Source: Alphaproteobacteria bacterium (GTDB lineage: Bacteria > Pseudomonadota > Alphaproteobacteria > Micavibrionales > Micavibrionaceae). Taken from it: 11,236 bases of DNA. Positions 178 to 11,236 of the stretch are shown here, in pieces (positions within the stretch are counted from its first letter, which is position 1; each line of letters starts with the position of its first letter). The DNA is taken from the NCBI GenBank assembly GCA_021776015.1, contig JAJFGT010000068.1, positions 1 through 11,236 on the forward strand. Reading direction: 5' to 3'. The notes under the pieces are model-generated. The model did not search any database. It saw only the letters and a program-made list of their open reading frames with translations, and was not told where the DNA came from. The position numbers and the translations under genes were made by a program.

Positions 178-2064
178 TTACAGCTTAAGAGGGCGACGAT
201 CATTAGAGAATGTTTTATATAGATCACGATCTACTTGATGTATCGTAGTTCTTCCATTCTCAACAATTGTCGCCTTTAAAAAGACCACAAGCTCTGTCTT
301 TTTAATAGAGTCTCCTTGACTTCTAAAGAGATGGCCCAAAATAGGCACTTCACCAAGGACAGGTATAGATTCTTGTTCAGAATCTGTTCTATCTTGCAAC
401 AATCCACCTAAAATAGCGACTTCTCCAGAATTCATTAAGAGAACAGAATCCATTTCCTGCACATTGATTTCAGGAACCTCACTCACAACACCAGTAATAT
501 TGGCCGCTGCTGTTACAAATTGAATGGCAGGATCCTGTATACGATTAACAATCCGTGTAATTGTAGGTCGCACTTGCATAGTAATTGTTTGATCTTCCAG
601 ATTAATTGTAGGCATCACATTAATCAACACACCTTCTGGAACATTTCGAATATCAGAATCAATATCTGTTTGAGTAACACCTTGATCTGTTGTTACATCA
701 ATATCAATTTCGAAATAAACAGAATTTTTAGCAACATTTAAAGCCGCTGGTTGATTATTCAAAACTGTTAATCGAGGGCTGGCAAGAGCTCTTACTGTTC
801 CAAATCGAGATACGGCCTCAACAACTGTTGAGATATCACCGGAGGTATAGTTTACAAAGAGGCTGTTATTTGCATCAGAGGGTGAAAATGCTGGGCGACC
901 TGCTAACCCAAACCCAGCAGATACATTCCCTGAGAAAAGACTTAGATCATTCCAGTTAACACCTGTTGCAAATTCATCATTAAGCGTTACTTCTAAAATT
1001 TTAGCTTCAATCAAAACCTGAGATGAGACTGCTTTTTTAACAGCATCCAAATAAAGAACAATCTCTTCATGTATACGCTCATTAGCATAAACAGAAATCA
1101 TACCAGCCTGTTTATTCATAGAAAACGCTGGTGTAAAGTCAACATCATTTGCATTAGCAGAATCCGTTGATGTTGGGAGTGCGCCCACTTGAAGCGTAAC
1201 ATTTGGAGGTTGCACGACAGGAGGGGCTGATTGATCTTGTCCTGGAGATGGAACAGGCGTTCCATCCTCACCTAAAACTTCAGATTCTGCGACAGGTTCA
1301 ACGGAAACAACCGGTGCCTGAGGATTAGCAGATACAACACTTAGAGTAGGATCTGTTTCTGTCTTTAAAGATCCTTTTCCTGCATTGGACTCTAATATTT
1401 GTGTAATATTTTCGTTAAGTTCTTCCCAGAAATCTGATTCCGATTCACTACTAATAGAAAATTCAGATCCTGTGTCCGCGCCTTCTCCTGTTACAACAGA
1501 AATATTATTAGAAACAGCACTGCTTGATGTTCTTACAATTGAAAGATAATCAATTTTATATGTTTCGGTATAAGGGGTATCTAATTCAATACGAACAATA
1601 TCATCCGTAAAATTATAACGAAGCCCTGCAATCTTTGAAATTCGATCAATGACCATATCAAACGGACGATCTCGTGCTGTAAAAATAATAGATCCTGTAA
1701 TACGAGGGTCTAACTCAACATCGTAATCAGCTTGTTCGGCAAGGTCATAAAGAACATTTTTCAATGGAATGGTCTGATTCACAGATAAGGACACAAGAGG
1801 CATAGGGCGAAGATTATCAGGAACCGATGCAACATATGACTCGAGGGGAGGAATTCCATCCCCCTCACTCGAAAAGTTTTCAAACTCTAGATCGCGAGGC
1901 GCTAACCCATCTCTAAAATCTTGCCGCTCCATATCCGCAGCACGATCCATTTTAGTCTGGTTGGTAGCAAGATCACACCCAGAGAAAAGCAAGACAGTCC
2001 CTAAGGCAATAAAAGAAACAGCAGAGCTATATACTCTATTATATTTTACAGACATAAAAGCCAT
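178..2064 (-). CDS. mshL: MshL/PilN-like outer-membrane secretin lipoprotein
   Basis: Secretins form the gated outer-membrane ring of type IV pilus and type II secretion systems. The 628-residue product starts with a lipoprotein signal peptide (hydrophobic residues 14-28, lipidation Cys30 in LLFSGC). A short secretin/TonB N-terminal (STN) domain lies at about 92-160. A region at 165-230 with an acidic FWEELNENI stretch is typical of the MSHA-pilus MshL type. A Pro/Val/acid-rich linker follows at about 240-300, then the secretin core at about 345-600. The core contains VPEGVLINVMPTI and the family signature SIPVLGEVPILGHLFR at about 566-581. ATG 2064 is chosen over Met4 because an AGAGGT Shine-Dalgarno lies 9-10 bases upstream of it. 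Assignment as a secretin is firm; the MshL subtype rests on domain layout. The downstream partner genes (ATPase, pseudopilins) are not in the window. Confidence 0.88.
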   Translation of the reverse strand: MAFMSVKYNRVYSSAVSFIALGTVLLFSGCDLATNQTKMDRAADMERQDFRDGLAPRDLEFENFSSEGDGIPPLESYVASVPDNLRPMPLVSLSVNQTIPLKNVLYDLAEQADYDVELDPRITGSIIFTARDRPFDMVIDRISKIAGLRYNFTDDIVRIELDTPYTETYKIDYLSIVRTSSSAVSNNISVVTGEGADTGSEFSISSESESDFWEELNENITQILESNAGKGSLKTETDPTLSVVSANPQAPVVSVEPVAESEVLGEDGTPVPSPGQDQSAPPVVQPPNVTLQVGALPTSTDSANANDVDFTPAFSMNKQAGMISVYANERIHEEIVLYLDAVKKAVSSQVLIEAKILEVTLNDEFATGVNWNDLSLFSGNVSAGFGLAGRPAFSPSDANNSLFVNYTSGDISTVVEAVSRFGTVRALASPRLTVLNNQPAALNVAKNSVYFEIDIDVTTDQGVTQTDIDSDIRNVPEGVLINVMPTINLEDQTITMQVRPTITRIVNRIQDPAIQFVTAAANITGVVSEVPEINVQEMDSVLLMNSGEVAILGGLLQDRTDSEQESIPVLGEVPILGHLFRSQGDSIKKTELVVFLKATIVENGRTTIHQVDRDLYKTFSNDRRPLKL

Positions 2065-2237: not shown

Positions 2238-2924
2238 CTAAAGCTTAAGACATTTCACTTCATGAACAAGACGTGTATGTGCTCGGAAATGCTGTTTTGA
2301 TTGCCCATGACTATAGTCACTATTAGCATGCCGAACTATTGCATTTAATTCCCCCAATGATTCAGTCTCTTCTCTTGTTGAAACTCCAAAATATGGTTGA
2401 GTTACAATTAATCCACTGGCTTCAAACTTTTCCTCCCCCGCTTCATACACATTTAACAAAATATCAGCGGCATCCTCTTCTGACCAGAATCGTACAGAAC
2501 AGTCTTTATGCATCAATTGGGTCTGCAAAAGATGTGCATTAGCCGTAGCGAATGGAACAGGTTGTTGTAAAAAAACCTCCACGTCAGGTTCCAACATTTT
2601 TGCAGCGCCAGTTTCTTTGAGTGCAAAAATAAAGCAATCTTTATGAGGACCACTCGGGACGACATCTCCAATACGAAGCCCTTCAAAAGAAACAGAGGCA
2701 TTTGCTTCTCGTTGCTTTTTTCTATCTTCATCAGGCAAAATATTTAATGATACACGCCCCTCTAGATGATGATTTGCAGTTATGTCCAGATCTCGAATGT
2801 CGCCAGATTTAAGCCCTAAGAGATCCAGCGTTAATCTTGTTCCATCTGAAGATAATCTAAGGGTTAGACCTTGAAACTCTCCCCTCAAAATTCGCTTAGC
2901 GCCGTCATCATTTGCCTTAGTCAT
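2238..2924 (-). CDS. Unrecognised 228-residue soluble protein
   Basis: I do not recognise this family. The start is supported by AAGGA eight bases before ATG 2924. The product has no signal peptide and no membrane segment, so it is probably cytoplasmic. The first 100 residues alternate short hydrophobic strands with charged turns (for example LTLRLSSDGTRLTLDLLGL at about 20-38 and EGLRIGDVVPSG at about 81-92), suggesting a beta-rich domain. The middle contains CSVRFWSEEDAADILLNVYEAG at about 142-163, and the tail is basic and His-rich (residues 206-221). Three Cys residues (97, 142, 225) form no obvious metal motif. A PilZ-type fold was considered because a secretin gene follows, but the RxxxR and D/NxSxxG motifs are not visible. 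It lies upstream of the secretin on the same strand with a 173-base gap, so co-transcription is possible but unproven. Confidence 0.75.
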   Translation of the reverse strand: MTKANDDGAKRILRGEFQGLTLRLSSDGTRLTLDLLGLKSGDIRDLDITANHHLEGRVSLNILPDEDRKKQREANASVSFEGLRIGDVVPSGPHKDCFIFALKETGAAKMLEPDVEVFLQQPVPFATANAHLLQTQLMHKDCSVRFWSEEDAADILLNVYEAGEEKFEASGLIVTQPYFGVSTREETESLGELNAIVRHANSDYSHGQSKQHFRAHTRLVHEVKCLKL

Positions 2925-3159: not shown

Positions 3160-3444
3160 ATGAAAGCAAATACAGAACAAAACAGATTTGATACAATTGG
3201 ACAATGGCAAAAAAACCCTACAAAACCAAATCTTTTACAGGCTCATTTTATAACAGAATCAGGGCAAAGCGCTCCATATGATGCAGCTGCCTTAAGAAAT
3301 CTCTCTGACACTCTTACAGGACAAGAGGCTCTAAATGTAAAAGCAACGCTTAGCAGTCATAATCTTTTCCGTGTTAAGGAGGGACTAACACCCGACACGT
3401 CCCACCTCAAAAATCAAAACATTCAACACCGTAAGTTATTTTAA
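3160..3444 (+). CDS. Small orphan protein of 94 residues
   Basis: No family is recognised. The frame starts at ATG 3160 with GAGAG about eight bases upstream and ends at TAA 3444. The product is polar, rich in Asn, Gln, Lys and Thr, lacks Cys, has no signal peptide or membrane segment, and ends in a basic tail (HRKLF). The middle (about residues 40-75) could form a helix (DAAALRNLSDTLTGQEALNV), while both ends look disordered. It is the only plus-strand gene in the left half and stands divergent from the 228-residue gene and convergent with the TolC-like gene, with just 12 bases between the two stop codons. The dedicated promoter region with an inverted repeat supports it being real. Regulatory small protein or adaptor are both possible. 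Confidence 0.55.
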   Translation: MKANTEQNRFDTIGQWQKNPTKPNLLQAHFITESGQSAPYDAAALRNLSDTLTGQEALNVKATLSSHNLFRVKEGLTPDTSHLKNQNIQHRKLF

Positions 3445-3456
3445 TAGCACAAAAGA

Positions 3457-5091
3457 TTAATAAAGCTTTTCAGGAATGGTTTCTTCTGCATTTGCGGAAA
3501 CCATTGTGACATGCCCTGATTGCTGAGATAGCACACTAGGCCCCCTGTCCTTCAAGACAGTTAAGAGTCTGTCAAACAGTCTCGGGTTAATGGCATCTGT
3601 CCGTTTAGCAATAACACCCGTCATAGAGACTAAATCTGTGGCAGGCATATTTTGAGGTAAAGGGTCCATTCCAATAGAGGTCAACATCCGTCCATAGGCA
3701 TTTTGATACTCTGCGTAGGCAGAGTGGAGTTTTGAACGATTGAGGAGAGCTTCCATTTCACGCTCCAAATGGTCAGCAGATGATAGATTCTCCATTTTCT
3801 CTGTTGTGTTTGAAATCTTCTGCGTCACAGACGCCAATTTATGAATCACTCGAAAATGATCTTGAGCAAGAGTTAATCTATAGCGTGCCAAATGAACCTG
3901 AGACATGACGGCCACAATCAAAGCACGGCGACGCATTTCTATAAGTTTTTCTTTGCTTTTCACATGCTGGACACGCCGTGGCAAAGAAAATAACTTCACA
4001 AGATTTTCTGTAATTGAAAAAGAGATTTCATTCCAATCATTATTTCCAAGATAATGGTTTCCATCATAGTGATACCCTAAAGCCATACCTATACCAGGAA
4101 CAGCACTCAATGTTGTTGTTTTCACATTTCGTGCGCCAATACGTTTCATCAAGACATCTTCTCGAATTTCAGGACGTATCATCAAGGCCACAAGCTCTAA
4201 AGACTCGACATCTAGCTCCAACGTAGGAATACTATCTTGATTAAAAATAATAGATTCATTTACACTCAAAGGAAGATCATCTTCTGGTGATAAATTAATC
4301 AAAGATGCGAGCTCAACTTTTGCTGTGACCAACCCACCTTTTAAAGCCATCAAATCTTCCATATAACTCAGCAATCGAGCCTGCTGTTCATAGCGATGAA
4401 TTTGACTGTGAGGACGATTACCTTTACGGAGCCCCTCTCGATCAAGTCGTTCTACTTCTGCTTTTCCATTTTCAATCAAAGAATCAATGCGCGTCAATAG
4501 AATCTGAGCACTTGCAGCGCGCCAATACGCATACCGTACATCTTGGATAATGGCATGAACAACCTTACGACGGCGTTCTTCTGCGACACGCGCTTTATCA
4601 CTTAAACTTTTGGCTTCAGCATAGGCTATCCCTGCATCAATAACATTCCAATCCACACCTAAGCCTGCTGTTTTTTTCCTTTTTTCGTCAAAAACAGAAT
4701 CAGGAAGGCTTGTTGCTCCCGTTGCTACGGATTGATGCGTTAAACTAAGTTCTTCATCTCGTACTCTATAGCCAGCCTGTGCCGTTAAAGATGGAAGAAG
4801 CTCTAGTAACGCGAGATCCCCCTCGCCTTTTGCAATCATAGACTCCATAACGGAGACACGATGATCAAGATTATATAAAATACCTCGTGCCATGGCCTCG
4901 TGTAGAGACACAGGATGAGATACAGGCTCTTGATCCGCAAAAAGAGTTTTAAAATCTTGCTCAAGAACCTCAACATGCTCATCAAGCGTAATAGAATCAC
5001 TTGAACGTGAGCAACCTCCGATAGCGAGTACACTTAAAAGAGTCGCAATAAGAACAAAATTCGATGATGTGTTTTTTAAATAAAGAAACAT
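3457..5091 (-). CDS. TolC-family outer-membrane factor (lipoprotein)
   Basis: TolC/OprM-type proteins form the outer-membrane exit duct of tripartite efflux pumps and type I secretion systems. The 544-residue product has a lipoprotein signal peptide with lipidation Cys27 (LAIGGC), as in the OprM subfamily. The first repeat starts near residue 61 (VSLHEAMARGILYNLDHRVSV), reaches LLPSLTAQAGYRVR at about 98-111, and then LGVDWNVIDAGIAYAEAKSL at about 144-163, typical strand and coil landmarks of the family. Long charged helices follow (about 165-265 and 365-475). A tail of some 55 residues after about residue 490 is unusual. No in-frame start exists upstream: a TGA lies before the ATG. No close Shine-Dalgarno is seen. 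No membrane-fusion protein or pump gene is adjacent in the window, so the partner is unknown. Confidence 0.82.
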   Translation of the reverse strand: MFLYLKNTSSNFVLIATLLSVLAIGGCSRSSDSITLDEHVEVLEQDFKTLFADQEPVSHPVSLHEAMARGILYNLDHRVSVMESMIAKGEGDLALLELLPSLTAQAGYRVRDEELSLTHQSVATGATSLPDSVFDEKRKKTAGLGVDWNVIDAGIAYAEAKSLSDKARVAEERRRKVVHAIIQDVRYAYWRAASAQILLTRIDSLIENGKAEVERLDREGLRKGNRPHSQIHRYEQQARLLSYMEDLMALKGGLVTAKVELASLINLSPEDDLPLSVNESIIFNQDSIPTLELDVESLELVALMIRPEIREDVLMKRIGARNVKTTTLSAVPGIGMALGYHYDGNHYLGNNDWNEISFSITENLVKLFSLPRRVQHVKSKEKLIEMRRRALIVAVMSQVHLARYRLTLAQDHFRVIHKLASVTQKISNTTEKMENLSSADHLEREMEALLNRSKLHSAYAEYQNAYGRMLTSIGMDPLPQNMPATDLVSMTGVIAKRTDAINPRLFDRLLTVLKDRGPSVLSQQSGHVTMVSANAEETIPEKLY

Positions 5092-5250: not shown

Positions 5251-6183
5251 ATGCAAATTTTTACACAGACAGCCCCTCTTCCAGAAACCTTAAAATATTC
5301 AGTGCTTGCCATTGGGAATTTTGATGGAATGCATAAAGGGCATGTGGCCCTTATTCAAGAAGCTCTTTCCTTTGCACGAAAAAATAATATGCCTATGGGA
5401 GTCCTCACATTTGAGCCTCACCCTCGACAAATTTTTCAACCCAATGAATCTCCCTTCCGTATCACACCCCCTGCTGTAAAACGTCAAAAAATTGAAGAAC
5501 TCGGTATTGATTTTCTAGTAGAGCTTGAATTCACACGAGACTTAGCCCAAAAATCGCCCGATGATTTTGTAAAAGACATCCTTATTGAGCATATTGGCGT
5601 AGATCATATCTTTATCGGAGAAGATTTTCACTTTGGACAGAACAGAACAGGTTCAGTAGAAACATTAAGATCACATGCTCTGAATGTTACATCGATTGAT
5701 ATTTTAGAAGATGAACATACTCAAAAATATTCGGCCAGTCATGTCCGCTCCCATCTTCGTCGAGGATTGATTTCAGAGGCCAACCAAATTCTTGGATGGG
5801 AATGGGAAATTCAAGGGCATGTCATCCATGGTGATAAACGAGGGCGTGAATTAGGCTACCCCACAGCTAACGTCTCTCTGAATGATACCCTTCATCCCGC
5901 CTTTGGTGTCTATGCGACATATGTTCAAATTGAAGGCGAAACACACTGGCACTCAGCCGCCACAAACATTGGAATTCGGCCTATGTTTGAAACAAAGAAC
6001 GCTCTCGTCGAAGCTTATCTTTTTAATTTCAATGAAGATATTTATGGGAAAATGTTACGGATACGCCCTATTCAAAAACTCAGAGATGAAGCTCGTTTCA
6101 ACTCTCTTGAAGATTTGGTAACGCAAATTGAAAAAGACTGCCAAAAAATTAAAACCATACTCTCTTCTCCAAAACATATATAA
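5251..6183 (+). CDS. ribF: Bifunctional FAD synthetase / riboflavin kinase RibF
   Basis: RibF phosphorylates riboflavin to FMN and then adenylylates FMN to FAD in the cytoplasm. The 310-residue length is normal for the bacterial enzyme. The N-terminal nucleotidyltransferase domain carries IGNFDGMHKGH (21-31) with the His28-x-x-His31 motif, followed by TFEPHP (53-58) and the conserved FIGEDFHFGQNRTG stretch (121-134). The C-terminal riboflavin kinase domain carries GYPTAN (202-207), the conserved TNIGIRPMF (238-246) and the likely catalytic Glu254 (VEAYLFNF), then YGKMLRIRPIQKLRDEARF. All key motifs are present, so the enzyme should be active. The start gives the usual short N-terminus before the first strand, but no Shine-Dalgarno precedes it. 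It is convergent with paralog A with only three bases between stop codons and no visible terminator. Confidence 0.97.
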   Translation: MQIFTQTAPLPETLKYSVLAIGNFDGMHKGHVALIQEALSFARKNNMPMGVLTFEPHPRQIFQPNESPFRITPPAVKRQKIEELGIDFLVELEFTRDLAQKSPDDFVKDILIEHIGVDHIFIGEDFHFGQNRTGSVETLRSHALNVTSIDILEDEHTQKYSASHVRSHLRRGLISEANQILGWEWEIQGHVIHGDKRGRELGYPTANVSLNDTLHPAFGVYATYVQIEGETHWHSAATNIGIRPMFETKNALVEAYLFNFNEDIYGKMLRIRPIQKLRDEARFNSLEDLVTQIEKDCQKIKTILSSPKHI

Positions 6184-6186
6184 GCC

Positions 6187-7113
6187 CTAACTGTTACGAA
6201 GCTCCATTATCAAATCAGGAAAATAAATAACATCCTCTCTAATATTTTTGCTTAATCTTTTACACTCTCCATTCGTAAGAGCAAAAACGGAATGCCCAAT
6301 GCCATTCAAAGCTTCTTCAAAAGCTTCCATACATTTTTGAGGGGTATTATATTCTTCATAAGCACCGTCTACAGAGGATAAAAAAAGAGAGGCTAACTGA
6401 TTTAATCGCCCTGTATTTCTTGAGGGGTCCGAAAACTCAGCCGACAAATGTATATGAGGATAGTTTGGACGTGTGTTTTCTTGTACTAAAGCTTCGCGCT
6501 CATAAGAACCTACGGCAAGAACTTTCCCGCCATTATGTTCCAAAAAGCTTATCATACTTGCCATTGTTGTTCCTTGTTCTATTTTATGATCAAAGACTAT
6601 AAAATAAGGATTGGAACACTCTCCATTAGAACTCACAAAGGGATTATGAGGCTCCTTCGATGAATGAAAAGGTTGGTTTTCATACAGCTCATAGACTTGC
6701 TTTCCCGTGAGAGCATGGACACTGTTTTGATTACCAGAACGATCTAACTGAATAGTATCAACAATGGAGTCCGCTATACGCCAGTTAATTTGAGGCAATT
6801 TTTTTTCTAAAATCATTTGAACCTTCTGCAAATGATTTACGTTTGCAACATGCGGATCAGAAAATTTTTTAGGATGCTTATGGGGGTATGCGATATAAAT
6901 GGTCTCTATAGGGCTTTTTTTTACTTCTTTGTTTATAAACTCAAAAAAGGAAATCATATTGGTCTCGACGTATAGATCAAAGGCATTAGGAAAATCTGGA
7001 CGTATTTCTTGTCGCCTTGGGGGATTTGTAACAATAAAATTTTCATAGCCTTTTTTACTCCTCACTTGAGGGGCTACAGATGTCGCTACAGATGACCAAA
7101 AACTACCAAACAT
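6187..7113 (-). CDS. Paralog A: phosphoribosyltransferase-like protein (308 residues)
   Basis: Last gene of the array. The strongest functional hint is residues 171-183 (FIVFDHKIEQGTT), followed by a helix (MASMISFLEHN) and the strand GGKVLAVGS. In order and spacing this matches the PRPP loop of type I phosphoribosyltransferases and the DDMIDTGGT loop of PRPP synthetases. Asp175 is kept, but the next residue is His176 instead of an acid. Upstream are FIVTNPPRRQEIRPDFP (26-42), IYIAYPHKHP (72-81) and IADSIVDTIQLDRSGNQNSVHALTGKQVYE (113-142), which may hold the substrate-binding part. No signal peptide or membrane helix is seen, so a cytoplasmic location is likely. It has its own promoter, a leader like that of D (AGGAATAGGG before the ATG) and an N-terminus almost identical to D, while its C-terminal part is closest to E. 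Function and substrate are unknown. Confidence 0.85.
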   Translation of the reverse strand: MFGSFWSSVATSVAPQVRSKKGYENFIVTNPPRRQEIRPDFPNAFDLYVETNMISFFEFINKEVKKSPIETIYIAYPHKHPKKFSDPHVANVNHLQKVQMILEKKLPQINWRIADSIVDTIQLDRSGNQNSVHALTGKQVYELYENQPFHSSKEPHNPFVSSNGECSNPYFIVFDHKIEQGTTMASMISFLEHNGGKVLAVGSYEREALVQENTRPNYPHIHLSAEFSDPSRNTGRLNQLASLFLSSVDGAYEEYNTPQKCMEAFEEALNGIGHSVFALTNGECKRLSKNIREDVIYFPDLIMELRNS

Positions 7114-7133
7114 CTACCCTATTCCTTAATATA
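7111..7133 (-). promoter_or_regulatory. Ribosome-binding leader of paralog A, shared with D
   Basis: On the minus strand the sequence AGGAATAGGGTAG immediately precedes the ATG. Paralog D has the same leader with one base changed just before its ATG (positions 10067-10089). The other leaders differ: E and B have GGAG or GGAA further from the start, and C has GAGGAG. The shared leader shows that duplication or conversion between A and D extended past the start codon. Confidence 0.6.
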
Positions 7134-7144
7134 CGAATTTATCT

Positions 7145-7174
7145 TATATATTCACAACCTAAAGAATATGTCAA
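7145..7174 (-). promoter_or_regulatory. Promoter of paralog A with a 22-bp dyad between the boxes
   Basis: On the minus strand, a perfect TTGACA (7174-7169) is followed after 18 bases by TATATA (7150-7145). Between and touching the boxes is an inverted repeat ATATTC, 10 bases, GAATAT (7169-7148), with perfect 6-bp arms. It starts on the last base of the -35 box, exactly the geometry of the promoter before paralog E. The leader to the ATG is about 25-30 bases. This indicates that A can be expressed independently of the upstream four genes and is probably controlled by a DNA-binding regulator. Confidence 0.6.
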
Positions 7175-7177
7175 CGC

Positions 7178-8101
7178 TTATGGAGTACTGTGAAGCTCCA
7201 TTATCAAATGACGAAAAGGGATAAGTTCTTGTTGAATATTTCTATTTAACTTTATACATTCACTATCTGTAAGCGCAAAAACAGAATGCCCAATATCATT
7301 TAACGCCCTCTCAAATATCTCCATGCATTTTTGAGGAGTATCATACTCTATATAAGCCGCCGATACAGAACAATAAAATGAATTGGCAAGCTCGGGCAAT
7401 CTCCCCGTATTCCTTAAGGGATTGGCAAATTCACCAGACAGATGTGTATCAGGATATTTAGATCGTGTGTCCTGCTGCACCAAAGCTTCTTCCCCATAGG
7501 AACCTACTGCAAGAACATTCCCGCCGTTATGTTCCAAAAAGCTTGTCATATTGGATAGTGTTGTTCCCTGATCCATCATATGATCAAAGACAATAAAATA
7601 TGGATTAGAAGGCTTTCCCCTAAAAGTTACAAAAGGATTTTCAGACGAAAACAATGAACGCGAATCCTTCTCTTTATAAAGTCCATAAATCTGTTTTCCT
7701 CTAAGAGCATGTAAGCTTCCTGTATCAGACGAACGATCCAAGTCAACGGTTTCAACAATGGAGTCCGCTATACGCCAGTTAACACGGGGGCACTGTTCTT
7801 TTAAAAATTCCTGCGTATCCCGCACATGATCGGTATTAAAATCATTCGCACTAGGAAACATTTCAGGATGTTTCTGAGGGTAGGCTATATAAATAGTCTT
7901 TAAAGGTTGAGTTAAGCTCTTTTCGTTTATAAATTCAATAAAGGGATCCATTCTACCGTATAGATGAAATGCATTTGGAAAATCTGGACGGAGTTCTCGT
8001 TTCATCGGAGGATTTGCAACAATGAACCTCTCATAGTTTTCTTTGTTTATAGCAGGAAACGATAAAGGTGTTTTAAGAATCTCTTTTAAATTAGTAAACA
8101 T
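7178..8101 (-). CDS. Paralog B: phosphoribosyltransferase-like protein (307 residues)
   Basis: Same block order as its neighbours. The PRPP-loop-like segment is at 169-181 (FIVFDHMMDQGTT) with Asp173-His174, then LSNMTSFLEHNGGNVLAVGS. The loop MMDQGTT is close to the MIDTGGT form of PRPP synthetases. Differences from the other copies: the RSxNQGS block reads RSSDTGSLHALRGKQIYG (124-140), losing the Gln present in the other four, and the Gly-Glu-Cys-Ser-Asn block before the loop is GKPSN, lacking the Cys. Its N-terminal 24 residues are unlike A and D. The start is supported by GGAA upstream; the leader resembles that of E (TATGGA, then TAAT, then the ATG). It follows C by 28 bases and is probably co-transcribed. 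If the conserved Gln is catalytic, B would be impaired. Confidence 0.84.
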   Translation of the reverse strand: MFTNLKEILKTPLSFPAINKENYERFIVANPPMKRELRPDFPNAFHLYGRMDPFIEFINEKSLTQPLKTIYIAYPQKHPEMFPSANDFNTDHVRDTQEFLKEQCPRVNWRIADSIVETVDLDRSSDTGSLHALRGKQIYGLYKEKDSRSLFSSENPFVTFRGKPSNPYFIVFDHMMDQGTTLSNMTSFLEHNGGNVLAVGSYGEEALVQQDTRSKYPDTHLSGEFANPLRNTGRLPELANSFYCSVSAAYIEYDTPQKCMEIFERALNDIGHSVFALTDSECIKLNRNIQQELIPFRHLIMELHSTP

Positions 8102-8129
8102 TAATTATATTCCATAATATATAGGTTTA

Positions 8130-9131
8130 TCAAACAATACTATGTTTCAACACTGATATAACATCCAAAACAGCTATAGGAGGAGAATGAGGATCGCTCT
8201 TATGAGCGTATAATGAGGATACCAAGGCAGGAAAACTTGTTTTGTCAGTTTCAACTTCGCGAATTAACTTTATGCATTCTCCATCCGTAAGAGCAAAAAC
8301 AGAATGCCCTACTTCATTTAATGCCCTTTCAAATACCTCCATGCATTCTTGAGGAGTCTTATGCTTGTATTGATGCAGCTTTGCTGAAGAAGAAAACATC
8401 CTTGCTAATTCAGGAAGCCGTCCTATATTTCTGGAGGGATTTGCAAATTCACCAGATAAAGAAACTTCTGGACAGCAATAGAGAGTATCCTCTTGTGCTA
8501 ACATCTTACATGTATTAGAGAGAACGCCCAATACCTTCCCCTCATTATGCTCCAGAAAATTAATTAAATTCGCCATCGTTGTTCCTTGATCTATCATGTG
8601 ATCAGCAACGATAAAGTACGGATTAGAGCATTCTCCTTTAGAAGTCACAAAAAGATTAGGGGCTGGTGTCTCAAAAGACTTTTCTTTTTCATAAACTTCA
8701 TAAACCTGCTTCCCTGTGAGAGCATGAACGCTCCCCTGATTATTTGAACGACCCAAGTTCACAGTTTCAACAATAGAAGTAGCTATACGCCAATCAATTT
8801 GTGGACATTGATCTTCTAAAACTCTTTTAAATAGTAGAAGATCATCAGAATTAGGATCTCTGTGTGCTGGAAATATTTCAGGATGTTTATGAGGATACGC
8901 AATATAAATACTCTTTATATCTTGTAACCGTGAGCCCTCTTTTTTTAATTCATCCTCTACCAACTCAACGAAAGCCCCTATACCATTACCGATATTAAGA
9001 GAAGGAGGAAAATCTGGCCGTATACCTTGTCTTATCAAGGGGTTTGTAACAATAAAATCTTTACATTTCTCTTGGGCTCCCCCCCTAGACCCTACAAGAG
9101 TAATAAGTGACTGAAAAAGATTCTCTAACAT
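8130..9131 (-). CDS. Paralog C: divergent, C-terminally extended phosphoribosyltransferase-like protein (333 residues)
   Basis: The most divergent copy. The PRPP-loop-like segment is FIVADHMIDQGTT (173-185), with Ala176 where the others have Phe, then MANLINFLEHNEGKVLGV, with one Gly of the Gly-Gly pair replaced by Glu. The Asp of the IADS motif is Thr (RIATSIVETV, 115-124). A Cys pair at 219-220 is unique. The C-terminus runs about 25 residues past A, B and D, ending in a hydrophobic stretch (PPIAVLDVISVLKHSIV), and its beginning resembles the tail of E. The start is well supported by GAGGAG six bases before the ATG, and that ATG overlaps the end of D by 7 bp, so translation is probably coupled. 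The changes may mean altered specificity or relaxed constraint. Confidence 0.84.
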   Translation of the reverse strand: MLENLFQSLITLVGSRGGAQEKCKDFIVTNPLIRQGIRPDFPPSLNIGNGIGAFVELVEDELKKEGSRLQDIKSIYIAYPHKHPEIFPAHRDPNSDDLLLFKRVLEDQCPQIDWRIATSIVETVNLGRSNNQGSVHALTGKQVYEVYEKEKSFETPAPNLFVTSKGECSNPYFIVADHMIDQGTTMANLINFLEHNEGKVLGVLSNTCKMLAQEDTLYCCPEVSLSGEFANPSRNIGRLPELARMFSSSAKLHQYKHKTPQECMEVFERALNEVGHSVFALTDGECIKLIREVETDKTSFPALVSSLYAHKSDPHSPPIAVLDVISVLKHSIV

Positions 9132-10069
9132 TTGAAACTCCTCAATTTTGTAATCAAATGAGGAAAACTTACCGCATCACGTTCAAACTCATCACTTAAC
9201 CTTTCACATTCCCCATCCGTGAGCGCAAAAACAGAATGCCCAATTCCATTTAAAGCACCCTCAAAGACTTCTATACATTTTTGAGGAGTCGCATATTCCT
9301 CATAATTTCCTCCTGCAGAAGAAAAAAAAGCAGCTGCAAGCTGAGGTAATCGTCCCGTGTTTCTGTTAGGGTTTGCAAATTCACCGACTAGATTTATTTC
9401 GGTGTGTTTAGAACGCGTATCTATCTGTACAAAATCAACAGATTTTTTAGAAGCAGTTGCTAATACCCTTCCTCCATTATGCTCTAAAAAGCTCATCATG
9501 TTTGCTATTGTTGTTCCCTGTTCTATGCCATGATCAAAGATAATAAAGTGTGGATTGCTACAGTCTCCTTTAGAAAAAACAAAAGGATTAGGGCTCTCTT
9601 GAGTAAAGAAAGAGCTTTCTTTATAAATCTCATAAACTTGCTTTTTGGTTAAAGCATGGAGAGAGCGTTGATTATCTGAACGCGCTAAATGAACAGTTTC
9701 AACAATAGAATCTGCAAAACAAAAATCAATTTGAGGCAAACGAGATTTTAACTTATTTTTTAGTGCGTCTATTCCTTCATCATTCATAATTCTATGATCA
9801 GGAAACATTTTAGGATGCTTATGAGGATAGGCTATATAAATACTCTTTACATCCCCTAATGAAGAATTTTGTTTATCTAGTTCATTTCTAACAATAACTG
9901 CAAGTGAGTCCATATCCCCAACCAGATGTCTATCAAAGGAACGGGGGAAATCTGGACGTATCTCTCGCCGCCCCGGGGGATTTGTAACAATAAAATCCTC
10001 ATAGCCTTTTTCACTCCTCACTTGAGGCGCTACAGATGTCGCAATCGATTCTAAAAGACCACTAAACAT
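9125..10069 (-). CDS. Paralog D: phosphoribosyltransferase-like protein (314 residues)
   Basis: The PRPP-loop-like segment is FIIFDHGIEQGTT (175-187) with Asp179-His180, then IANMMSFLEHNGGRVLA. N-terminal TSVAPQVRSEKGYEDFIVTNPP (11-32) differs from A at only two positions. Against the family consensus it reads DFCFADSIVETVHLARSDNQRSLHALTKKQVYE, so the Trp-Arg before the Ala-Asp motif is changed and the Gly of ALTGKQ is Lys. It ends in a short tail (LRSFKC) whose last codons lie inside the start of C. It follows E by 37 bases with no promoter found in between, so it is probably read from the E promoter. The leader AGGAATAGGG supports the chosen start. Confidence 0.85.
   Translation of the reverse strand: MFSGLLESIATSVAPQVRSEKGYEDFIVTNPPGRREIRPDFPRSFDRHLVGDMDSLAVIVRNELDKQNSSLGDVKSIYIAYPHKHPKMFPDHRIMNDEGIDALKNKLKSRLPQIDFCFADSIVETVHLARSDNQRSLHALTKKQVYEIYKESSFFTQESPNPFVFSKGDCSNPHFIIFDHGIEQGTTIANMMSFLEHNGGRVLATASKKSVDFVQIDTRSKHTEINLVGEFANPNRNTGRLPQLAAAFFSSAGGNYEEYATPQKCIEVFEGALNGIGHSVFALTDGECERLSDEFERDAVSFPHLITKLRSFKC
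9138..9143 (-). promoter_or_regulatory. Strong ribosome-binding site of paralog C inside the end of D
   Basis: GAGGAG lies six bases before the ATG at 9131, within the last codons of D. It is the strongest Shine-Dalgarno sequence in the array and fixes the start of C. Its position gives a 7-bp gene overlap, typical of coupled translation. Confidence 0.65.
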
Positions 10070-10106
10070 TTACCCTATTCCTGAATACATAAAAAATCAT
10101 ATACAC

Positions 10107-11039
10107 TTATAATCCATGCGACATATCATGTTTATATGTAGATGATAACGAAACTAAAGCTGGCAGACGTACTATCCCGCTCATAACATTCTCCCTTAAC
10201 CTTTTACACTCTCCATCAGTAAGAGCAAAAACAGAATGCCCCATGCCATTCAAAGCTTTTTCAAAAGCTTCCATACATTTTTGAGGAGTCTCATAGTCCT
10301 CATACCGACCTTTCATCGAAGAACAAAAAGCAAATGCAAGTTCAGGCAATCGCCCTGTATTTCTTAAAGGATTTGAAAACTCTCCATACAAATGTGTATT
10401 AGGATATTTTGAACGCGTGTCTTTTTGCACGAGTGGGGTAGGATTTATGTGAGAAGCTACAGCCAGGACTTCTCCTCCATTATGCTCCAAAAAACTCATC
10501 ATATTGGCCGCTGTTGTCCCCTGCTCTACGACATGATCAAAGATAATAAAATGGGGATTCGAACATTCTCCTTTAGAGGTCACAAAAGGATTCTGAGATG
10601 AAAATAATGAACAAAATCTTTTCTTTTCATAGACTTCATAAACTTGCTTTCCTGTGAGGGCATGAAAACTCCCTTGATCAAAAGAACGATTTAGGGACAC
10701 AGTCTCAACAACGGAATCTGCAAGAGGCCAGCTAATTTTAGGGAAATGATATTTTAATAAAAGTGACAGAATAAAGGGAACACCAGAATTCTTATCTTGA
10801 TAACCAGGAAATCTCTTAGGATGCTTCTGAGGGTATACTATATAAACTCTCTCTATATTCTGTAATGAAGAACTCTTTTCACTTAATTTATTTTCAATAA
10901 GAGAGACAAGAGAATCCATACTCCTATCTAAACGCACATCGAAAGTATTTGGAAAATCTGGACGGATTTCTCTTCGCGTAGGCGGATTTGTAACAATATC
11001 TCCTTGTGGAACTTTAAGCTTAAGACCCTCGTTTAACAT
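10107..11039 (-). CDS. Paralog E: phosphoribosyltransferase-like protein, first gene of the array (310 residues)
   Basis: First in transcription order. The PRPP-loop-like segment is FIIFDHVVEQGTT (164-176) with Asp168-His169, then AANMMSFLEHNGGEVLAVAS. The N-terminus is about 12 residues shorter than in A, C and D and lacks their amphipathic opening helix. This is a real difference, because two in-frame stop codons (TAATAA) sit directly before the ATG. Other blocks: IVTNPPTRREIRPDFP (15-30), VYIVYPQKHP (65-74), PLADSVVETVSLNRSFDQGSFHALTGKQVYEVYE (105-138). GGAG eight bases upstream supports the start. The C-terminal block (QKCMEAFEKALNGMGHSVFALTDGECKRL) is nearly that of A, while the tail (PALVSLSSTYKHDMSHGL) resembles C. 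Substrate and role are unknown. Confidence 0.85.
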   Translation of the reverse strand: MLNEGLKLKVPQGDIVTNPPTRREIRPDFPNTFDVRLDRSMDSLVSLIENKLSEKSSSLQNIERVYIVYPQKHPKRFPGYQDKNSGVPFILSLLLKYHFPKISWPLADSVVETVSLNRSFDQGSFHALTGKQVYEVYEKKRFCSLFSSQNPFVTSKGECSNPHFIIFDHVVEQGTTAANMMSFLEHNGGEVLAVASHINPTPLVQKDTRSKYPNTHLYGEFSNPLRNTGRLPELAFAFCSSMKGRYEDYETPQKCMEAFEKALNGMGHSVFALTDGECKRLRENVMSGIVRLPALVSLSSTYKHDMSHGL

Positions 11040-11100: not shown

Positions 11101-11236
11101 GTTTTATATCTTTCCTTTCGCATGGATATATTTCTAAAATGCTTAAACATTCCCCTCCCTTGAAAAGCGTTCATAATAATGCAATAGTAGCAGCCAATAT
11201 GATAAGAATTAGGGATATATAAAAATGTAATAATAC

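Follow-up and report, generated by a model that had tools for sequence, protein, structure and literature searches.

What are the five similar genes that stand side by side at positions 6187..11039 of an 11,236-nucleotide alphaproteobacterial contig (JAJFGT010000068.1, assembly GCA_021776015.1, family Micavibrionaceae), a stretch referred to here in its entirety as the window? An earlier note, made from the letters alone, had described them as intact, strongly diverged paralogs of an unfamiliar family that carries the phosphoribosyl pyrophosphate (PRPP) loop of type I phosphoribosyltransferases (PRTs). The genes, labeled A to E, are five complete open reading frames (ORFs) on the minus strand that encode proteins of 307-333 amino acids and bear no sign of decay. 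They represent a new and divergent lineage within a known superfamily, distinguished by an unusual change of motif and by a number of copies unmatched in their order. Its products are predicted to be soluble, divergent proteins of the type I PRT fold that most likely still bind PRPP, and we lean toward regarding them as accessory, amplified enzymes that use it.

The copies are separated by gaps of 28-64 bases, except for the 7-base overlap of D and C, and all ten pairs share 49-57% protein identity, with segments of low identity lying between the motif blocks. The array repeats as a unit of about 1 kb, and the repeat families found within it share 61-83% DNA identity, which at this spacing indicates an old duplication rather than an assembly repeat. 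Ratios of nonsynonymous to synonymous divergence (dN/dS, NG86) are about 0.24-0.44 across the ten pairs, values that are only approximate because dS is 0.85-1.64, and a PHI-like test detects no significant exchange between copies (p 0.098). At 30 positions with at least 90% conservation in 37 relatives, copies A, B, C, D and E deviate 3, 3, 1, 1 and 1 times, respectively, while the relatives, on which these positions were chosen, deviate at 0-4 of them; decay is not seen in any copy by this count. Judged by sequence, the copies arose long ago, have diverged and remain constrained at the protein level. Their composition is not clearly foreign (GC content 0.37-0.38 overall and 0.25-0.31 at third codon positions, compared with 0.39-0.42 and 0.24-0.32 in four flanking genes). 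Promoter-like sites are not in excess (16 observed against 16.6 in shuffles), tRNA and Rfam scans return nothing, and a crude hydropathy scan of A-E detects no signal-like or membrane segment.

Homology to PRTs is carried by profile-profile comparison and by predicted structure. In hhalign, the family aligns with two canonical PRT alignments at P 1.9e-8 and 2e-8, whereas 14 control alignments reach 0.05 or worse. Among the best 50 VIA-align rows, named chains of the PRT superfamily account for 48 with the AlphaFold model of A and 49 with that of C, hypoxanthine PRTs coming first in both lists. Each model contains the PRT core, in which a parallel sheet is flanked by helices and the PRPP loop follows a core strand. 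The profile searches and structure models that the earlier note had proposed thus point to no other fold, and none of them matches a characterised family strongly. Nine of the 42 family members retain a DD loop, which further favors a PRT-type fold. Scanned directly against Pfam and NCBIfam, the family remains below the cut-offs, and a confident family name is provided neither by Pfam, NCBIfam or PADLOC (27 members of alignment A2) nor by PHROGs (three members), and the earlier note could assign the blocks RPDFP, YPHKHP, HALTGKQVYE and GHSVFALT to no named family. Likewise, no paper describing the family was found among the open-licence PMC papers searched. Below these thresholds, one member with a DD loop matches PF00156 at E 1e-4, proteins P0025 and P0019 match phrog_22413 of PHROGs at 6.8e-6 and 2e-5, and PRPP synthetases appear weakly, both through ribP_PPkin of NCBIfam (2 of 27 members, best 0.043) and as chains at ranks 24 and 43 of the VIA-align list for copy A. 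A sequence search of solved structures gives a meaningless top match to a rhoptry fragment (0.019), behind which lie loop-level matches to APRT at 0.17. A BFVD search yields nothing below E 1e-3, its list consisting mostly of helicases and polyproteins, and an HTH_35 match in 2 of the 27 A2 members (best 0.04) is not credible.

The shared motifs were for the most part described correctly. The PRPP loop, D-H-x-x-[DE]-Q-G-T-T, is common to the five copies, as are RPDFP and GHSVFALT, and GGxVL occurs in four, with EGKVL in C. Two of the blocks show small exceptions: YPHKHP is exact in three copies and reads YPQKHP in B and E, and HALTGKQVYE is exact in A, C and E, with deviations in B and D. Columns identical in all five copies make up 54% of residues 167-203, which include the PRPP loop, 58% of 223-241, 68% of 261-285 and 50% of both 70-85 and 123-144. 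The corresponding values are low in the segments between, at 7% of 1-27, 0% of 46-69, 13% of 86-108, 18% of 145-166, 11% of 204-222 and 9% of 286-308.

The assignment of the loop to PRTs stands as far as the fold is concerned, but the second acid of the classic motif is missing. Loops equivalent to residues 175-183 of copy A are present in B-E by alignment, and Lys79, Arg125, Asp175, Gly181, Thr183, Gln211 and Thr280 are invariant in all 42 family members, with Gln180 kept in 40. Residue 176, the position of the second acid in the DD pair, is by comparison highly variable (D in 9 members, H in 8, S in 8, N in 6, W in 3, T in 3, G in 2, and A, C and R in one each). It is relaxed in 33 of 42 members and is His in all five array copies, which as DH depart from the two-adjacent-acid motif (DD or ED). 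Residue 179 is Glu in 35 members, Asp in 6 and Cys in 1. By loop spacing, in a mapping made here, residues 175, 176 and 179 would match Glu133, Asp134 and Asp137 of human HGPRT, the last of which lies near the purine according to a table in PMC2228302. Residue 119 is acidic (Glu or Asp) throughout the 42 members and is one candidate for replacing the second acid, although the members with DD carry it as well. The tree implies 5 changes for the DD rows, with a minimum of 3 by its well-supported branches; the history of the motif is unsure because several DD rows are long branches.

Placed on the models, these conserved elements suggest a layout for the active site. The loop after strand 1, which contains YPHKHP and Lys79, would contact pyrophosphate. 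The mobile loop after strand 2 would correspond to L-x-RS...HALTGKQ with Arg125, and the PRPP loop, D-x-x-x-[DE]-Q-G-T-T, would hold the ribose and 5′-phosphate. A putative hood over the acceptor would combine RPDFP, near the N-terminus, with two C-terminal segments, RNTGRLP and GHSVFALTxxE. With the second acid of the DD pair given up, the contact to ribose or metal must differ from that in textbook PRTs. The motif used to recognise PRTs is broken in this family, with the remainder of the predicted active site retained.

The amplification is specific to one lineage. Profile searches of the order match 17 of 142 genomes, and the family proper is present in 14 and absent from 128, the matches in G035, G058 and G132, which are loop-level and belong to a different, canonical family of PRTs, having been left out of the count. 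Eleven of the 14 genomes carry one copy, G139 and G136 carry two adjacent copies, and only the genome of the window carries five. Samples of 385 genomes from the class and 398 from the phylum (E <= 1e-5) add, beyond the genome itself, one loop-level match each (G265 and G646). A search of 5.8 billion proteins returns 27 matches, including the five of the window, and a scan of genome contigs returns five loci, of which two carry the title Micavibrio sp. and three the title Alphaproteobacteria bacterium. The family has no match among 50,697 phage and 72,556 plasmid records (query P0009) or in IMG/VR (query A2). Within the reach of these searches, its range is a single order of alphaproteobacteria with small genomes, probably Micavibrionales of GTDB, in which some records are titled Micavibrio.

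A tree of 42 members groups the five array copies in a single clade (support 99/100; present in 98% of 200 bootstrap trees). The pair in G139 overlaps by 4 bases (L043:659-2649) although its two members are not sisters on this tree, so the keeping together of unlike copies has happened more than once. Family genes recur at two chromosomal sites, lying downstream of a dnaE-like gene in G140, G073, G139 and G061 (loci L041, L042, L043 and L045) and between lptB-like and rpoN-like genes in G134, G023 and G052 (L044, L050 and L051); these names, like ileS below, are tentative readings of the sequences. In the other six genomes, family genes adjoin, for example, phosphomannomutase, DinB-type polymerase, malic enzyme or folD-type genes. 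Among the ten neighbours scanned, two of which have no family assignment, no constant partner gene or operon accompanies the family, and no defence gene is recognised among the neighbours examined.

The roles that the earlier note had floated, namely salvage from a host, modification of a target and a diversified effector set, gain no direct support from a locus that lacks a constant partner gene and any signal-like segment and whose copies have the same invariant residues. Most likely, A-E work as PRPP-dependent phosphoribosyl transferases or hydrolases. The copies keep their invariant residues and diverge mostly elsewhere; read from the alignment, this pattern favors a common chemistry with differing surfaces, or an effect of dosage, over a separate base specificity for each of the five. 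Our guess is that the solo PRTs of phages and plasmids are relatives of the family, which would be an accessory gene in the chromosomes of the order, several differently surfaced copies being kept together and acting on nucleotides or bases. That it acts in intergenomic conflict is a tentative suggestion. It is a good deal less probable that these proteins represent a new PRT-fold class that has dismantled the DD ribose clamp and kept the loop Lys, mobile-loop Arg and phosphate loop; such a class would use PRPP to load phosphoribose onto an acceptor that is macromolecular or otherwise not a base, or would split PRPP or nucleotides, with the copies at one locus sharing this chemistry and each directing its own surface toward a different partner or invader.

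A special case of the preferred reading, that of PRPP-using accessory enzymes, is modeled on ShosT, the PRT toxin of the ShosTA anti-phage system, which disturbs purine metabolism (as stated in an excerpt of PMC12593503). The array would then be a stacked defence locus whose products perturb the purine or PRPP pool upon phage or plasmid entry. The PRT fold is common to both, and PRPP-bound ShosT (8zvc) ranks second among PDB entries in Foldseek (E 0.019). In addition, the PADLOC ShosT profile hits every one of the 14 canonical kin in alignment A3 (best 4.1e-9), the patchy presence in 14 of 142 genomes would suit such a role, and kin occur on plasmids and in phages (canonical relative P0090 matches 169 of 72,556 plasmid and 2 of 50,697 phage records). 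However, the same profile reaches only 1 of 27 family members, at 0.024; the window has no counterpart of the DprA-like antitoxin partner of ShosT, the single DprA-family match of the genome lying on another contig; and the neighbours examined are devoid of recognisable defence genes. An effector of this type is unlikely here.

Slightly less probable still is ordinary nucleobase salvage, in which the five copies would differ in base specificity, perhaps for bases obtained from other cells. The 6-oxopurine PRTs (HPRT/HGPRT) are the closest solved folds, and the mostly acidic residue 179 falls at the position of human HGPRT Asp137. Against this, the invariant residues and His176 are identical in all five copies, with divergence mostly outside the motif segments, the genome carries three other PF00156 proteins above cut-off, and most genomes of the order do without the family. 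The resemblance to 6-oxopurine PRTs is itself distant: identity is 7-13% over the top rows, the array copies lack the second loop acid at 176, and they carry long extra N- and C-terminal segments (307-333 amino acids, compared with about 170-220 in the 6-oxopurine PRT rows). The idea that the copies are catalytically dead sensors or regulators that bind PRPP, nucleotide or alarmone, which the relaxed second acid, the presence of PyrR among VIA-align rows and PurR among Foldseek rows, and weak NCBIfam matches to GfcR, a regulator that resembles PRTs (6 of 27 members, best 0.0095), would favor, is equally improbable given that Pfam detects no DNA- or RNA-binding domain in A-E or the 27 A2 members and that Lys79 and Arg125, hardly needed by a mere sensor, are invariant.

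The array is bounded on the left by ribF and probably on the right by the start of an ileS-like gene (Table). An ileS-like gene follows ribF both in G001, a congener (967 amino acids, after a gap of 165 bases), and in G005, which belongs to the same family (976 amino acids). In the genome of the window, the best match to this gene lies on contig C105, its start codon 63 bases from the contig end, and the last 74 bases of the window align with C105 at a score of 58, where 500 shuffles reach at most 18. On the simplest reading, the five genes alone fill the ribF-ileS interval, a reading that falls short of proof because of eight mismatches at a contig end. In this near-copy, which differs at 8 of 74 bases, the ATG is followed by an in-frame TAA TAA; it may be a contig-end error, a strain variant or a duplicated leader. 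Neither G001 nor G002, both congeners, matches the family, and ribF of G002 is in another setting. Elsewhere in the window are a secretin closest to MshL of MSHA-type pili (178-2064, minus strand; 214.2 bits, where the cut-off is 250.2), an outer membrane efflux protein of TolC-like type (3457-5091, minus strand) found, with its protein as query, in the three genomes of the genus and in none of six others searched, and two ORFs of 228 and 94 amino acids without Pfam or NCBIfam match (2238-2924, minus strand, and 3160-3444, plus strand).

Table. Array genes, predicted active-site codons and borders in the window
Feature	Position	Strand	Evidence
Copy A, PRT-like, 308 aa	6187..7113	-	ORF; family profile E 5.3e-120 (A itself in profile); model pLDDT 86.4, pTM 0.85
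Copy B, PRT-like, 307 aa	7178..8101	-	ORF; alignment
Copy C, PRT-like, 333 aa, most diverged; 7-base overlap with D	8130..9131	-	ORF; model pLDDT 83.6, pTM 0.82
Copy D, PRT-like, 314 aa	9125..10069	-	ORF; alignment
Copy E, PRT-like, 310 aa, most upstream	10107..11039	-	ORF; alignment
PRPP-loop codons of copy A, residues 175-183 (DHKIEQGTT)	6565..6591	-	Alignment; profile match to solved APRT PRPP loop, weak alone (E 0.17)
Arg125 codon of copy A, invariant, loop after strand 2	6739..6741	-	42/42 members; strands from model
Lys79 codon of copy A, invariant, loop after strand 1 (YPHKHP)	6877..6879	-	42/42 members; strands from model
ribF (FAD synthetase / riboflavin kinase), left border, tail to tail with A	5251..6183	+	PF06574, PF01687
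Near-copy of ileS leader and start (66/74 bases), probable right border	11163..11236	+	Local alignment with contig C105

Comparison with other known PRTs helps to place the family. A zinc-finger-type N-terminus is a feature of ComF/ComFC-like PRTs; no such N-terminus is seen here, and ComF is not among the NCBIfam matches listed for the family. Elsewhere in the class, a 786-residue ORF of G265 (L040:394-2754, minus strand) matches type I-G CRISPR Csb2 at residues 1-262 and 475-781 and has a canonical PRT domain with a DDFIGQGGT loop between the two parts, apparently a PRT domain inserted in a Cas protein. The canonical relatives P0042 and P0090 weakly match the NCBIfam type III effector XopC/Rsp1239 (1.2e-4 and 0.0022, far below the 1000-bit cut-off), probably through their PRT domain.

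That an enzyme of the PRT fold can lack the vicinal DD pair is illustrated by the CriT domain of Bcs3, the capsule polymerase of Haemophilus influenzae type b. In the excerpted text of PMC10299916, the role of the pair is taken by D680 and E818, which reside in two different loops, an arrangement that its authors link to a more open site. No link in sequence or structure between CriT and the family turned up, no dedicated comparison having been made, and neither a capsule gene nor a HAD phosphatase gene is recognised beside the array.

The nearest counterparts are the PRTs of invasive elements (PMC5512222; phrog_22413), the best profile-profile partner tested (P 2e-8 over 134 columns). Their role is called enigmatic in an excerpt of PMC5512222, which proposes the production or sensing of a nucleotide during DNA entry. 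The same excerpt describes a MuF fusion, which is resembled by an arrangement in Moraxella phage Mcat8, where the P0090 match occupies the C-terminal part of an annotated coat protein gene right after the terminase and portal genes. Among the 20 plasmid rows listed for P0090, two (H4 and H5) are annotated as KfrC, a plasmid stable-inheritance protein. The invasive-element PRTs are defined in the excerpted text by the DD motif, in place of which all five array copies have DH; moreover, the family is chromosomal, unlike these proteins, and its N-terminal half did not align to them. Five natural variants from one locus are open to expression and comparison, and the array makes it testable whether the DD motif is dispensable and what the PRTs of phages and plasmids really do. 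The features that the two groups have in common are solo proteins of similar size, a C-terminal LTxxE segment and, in the mapping made here, an Arg in the loop after strand 2 that is the putative equivalent of Arg125.

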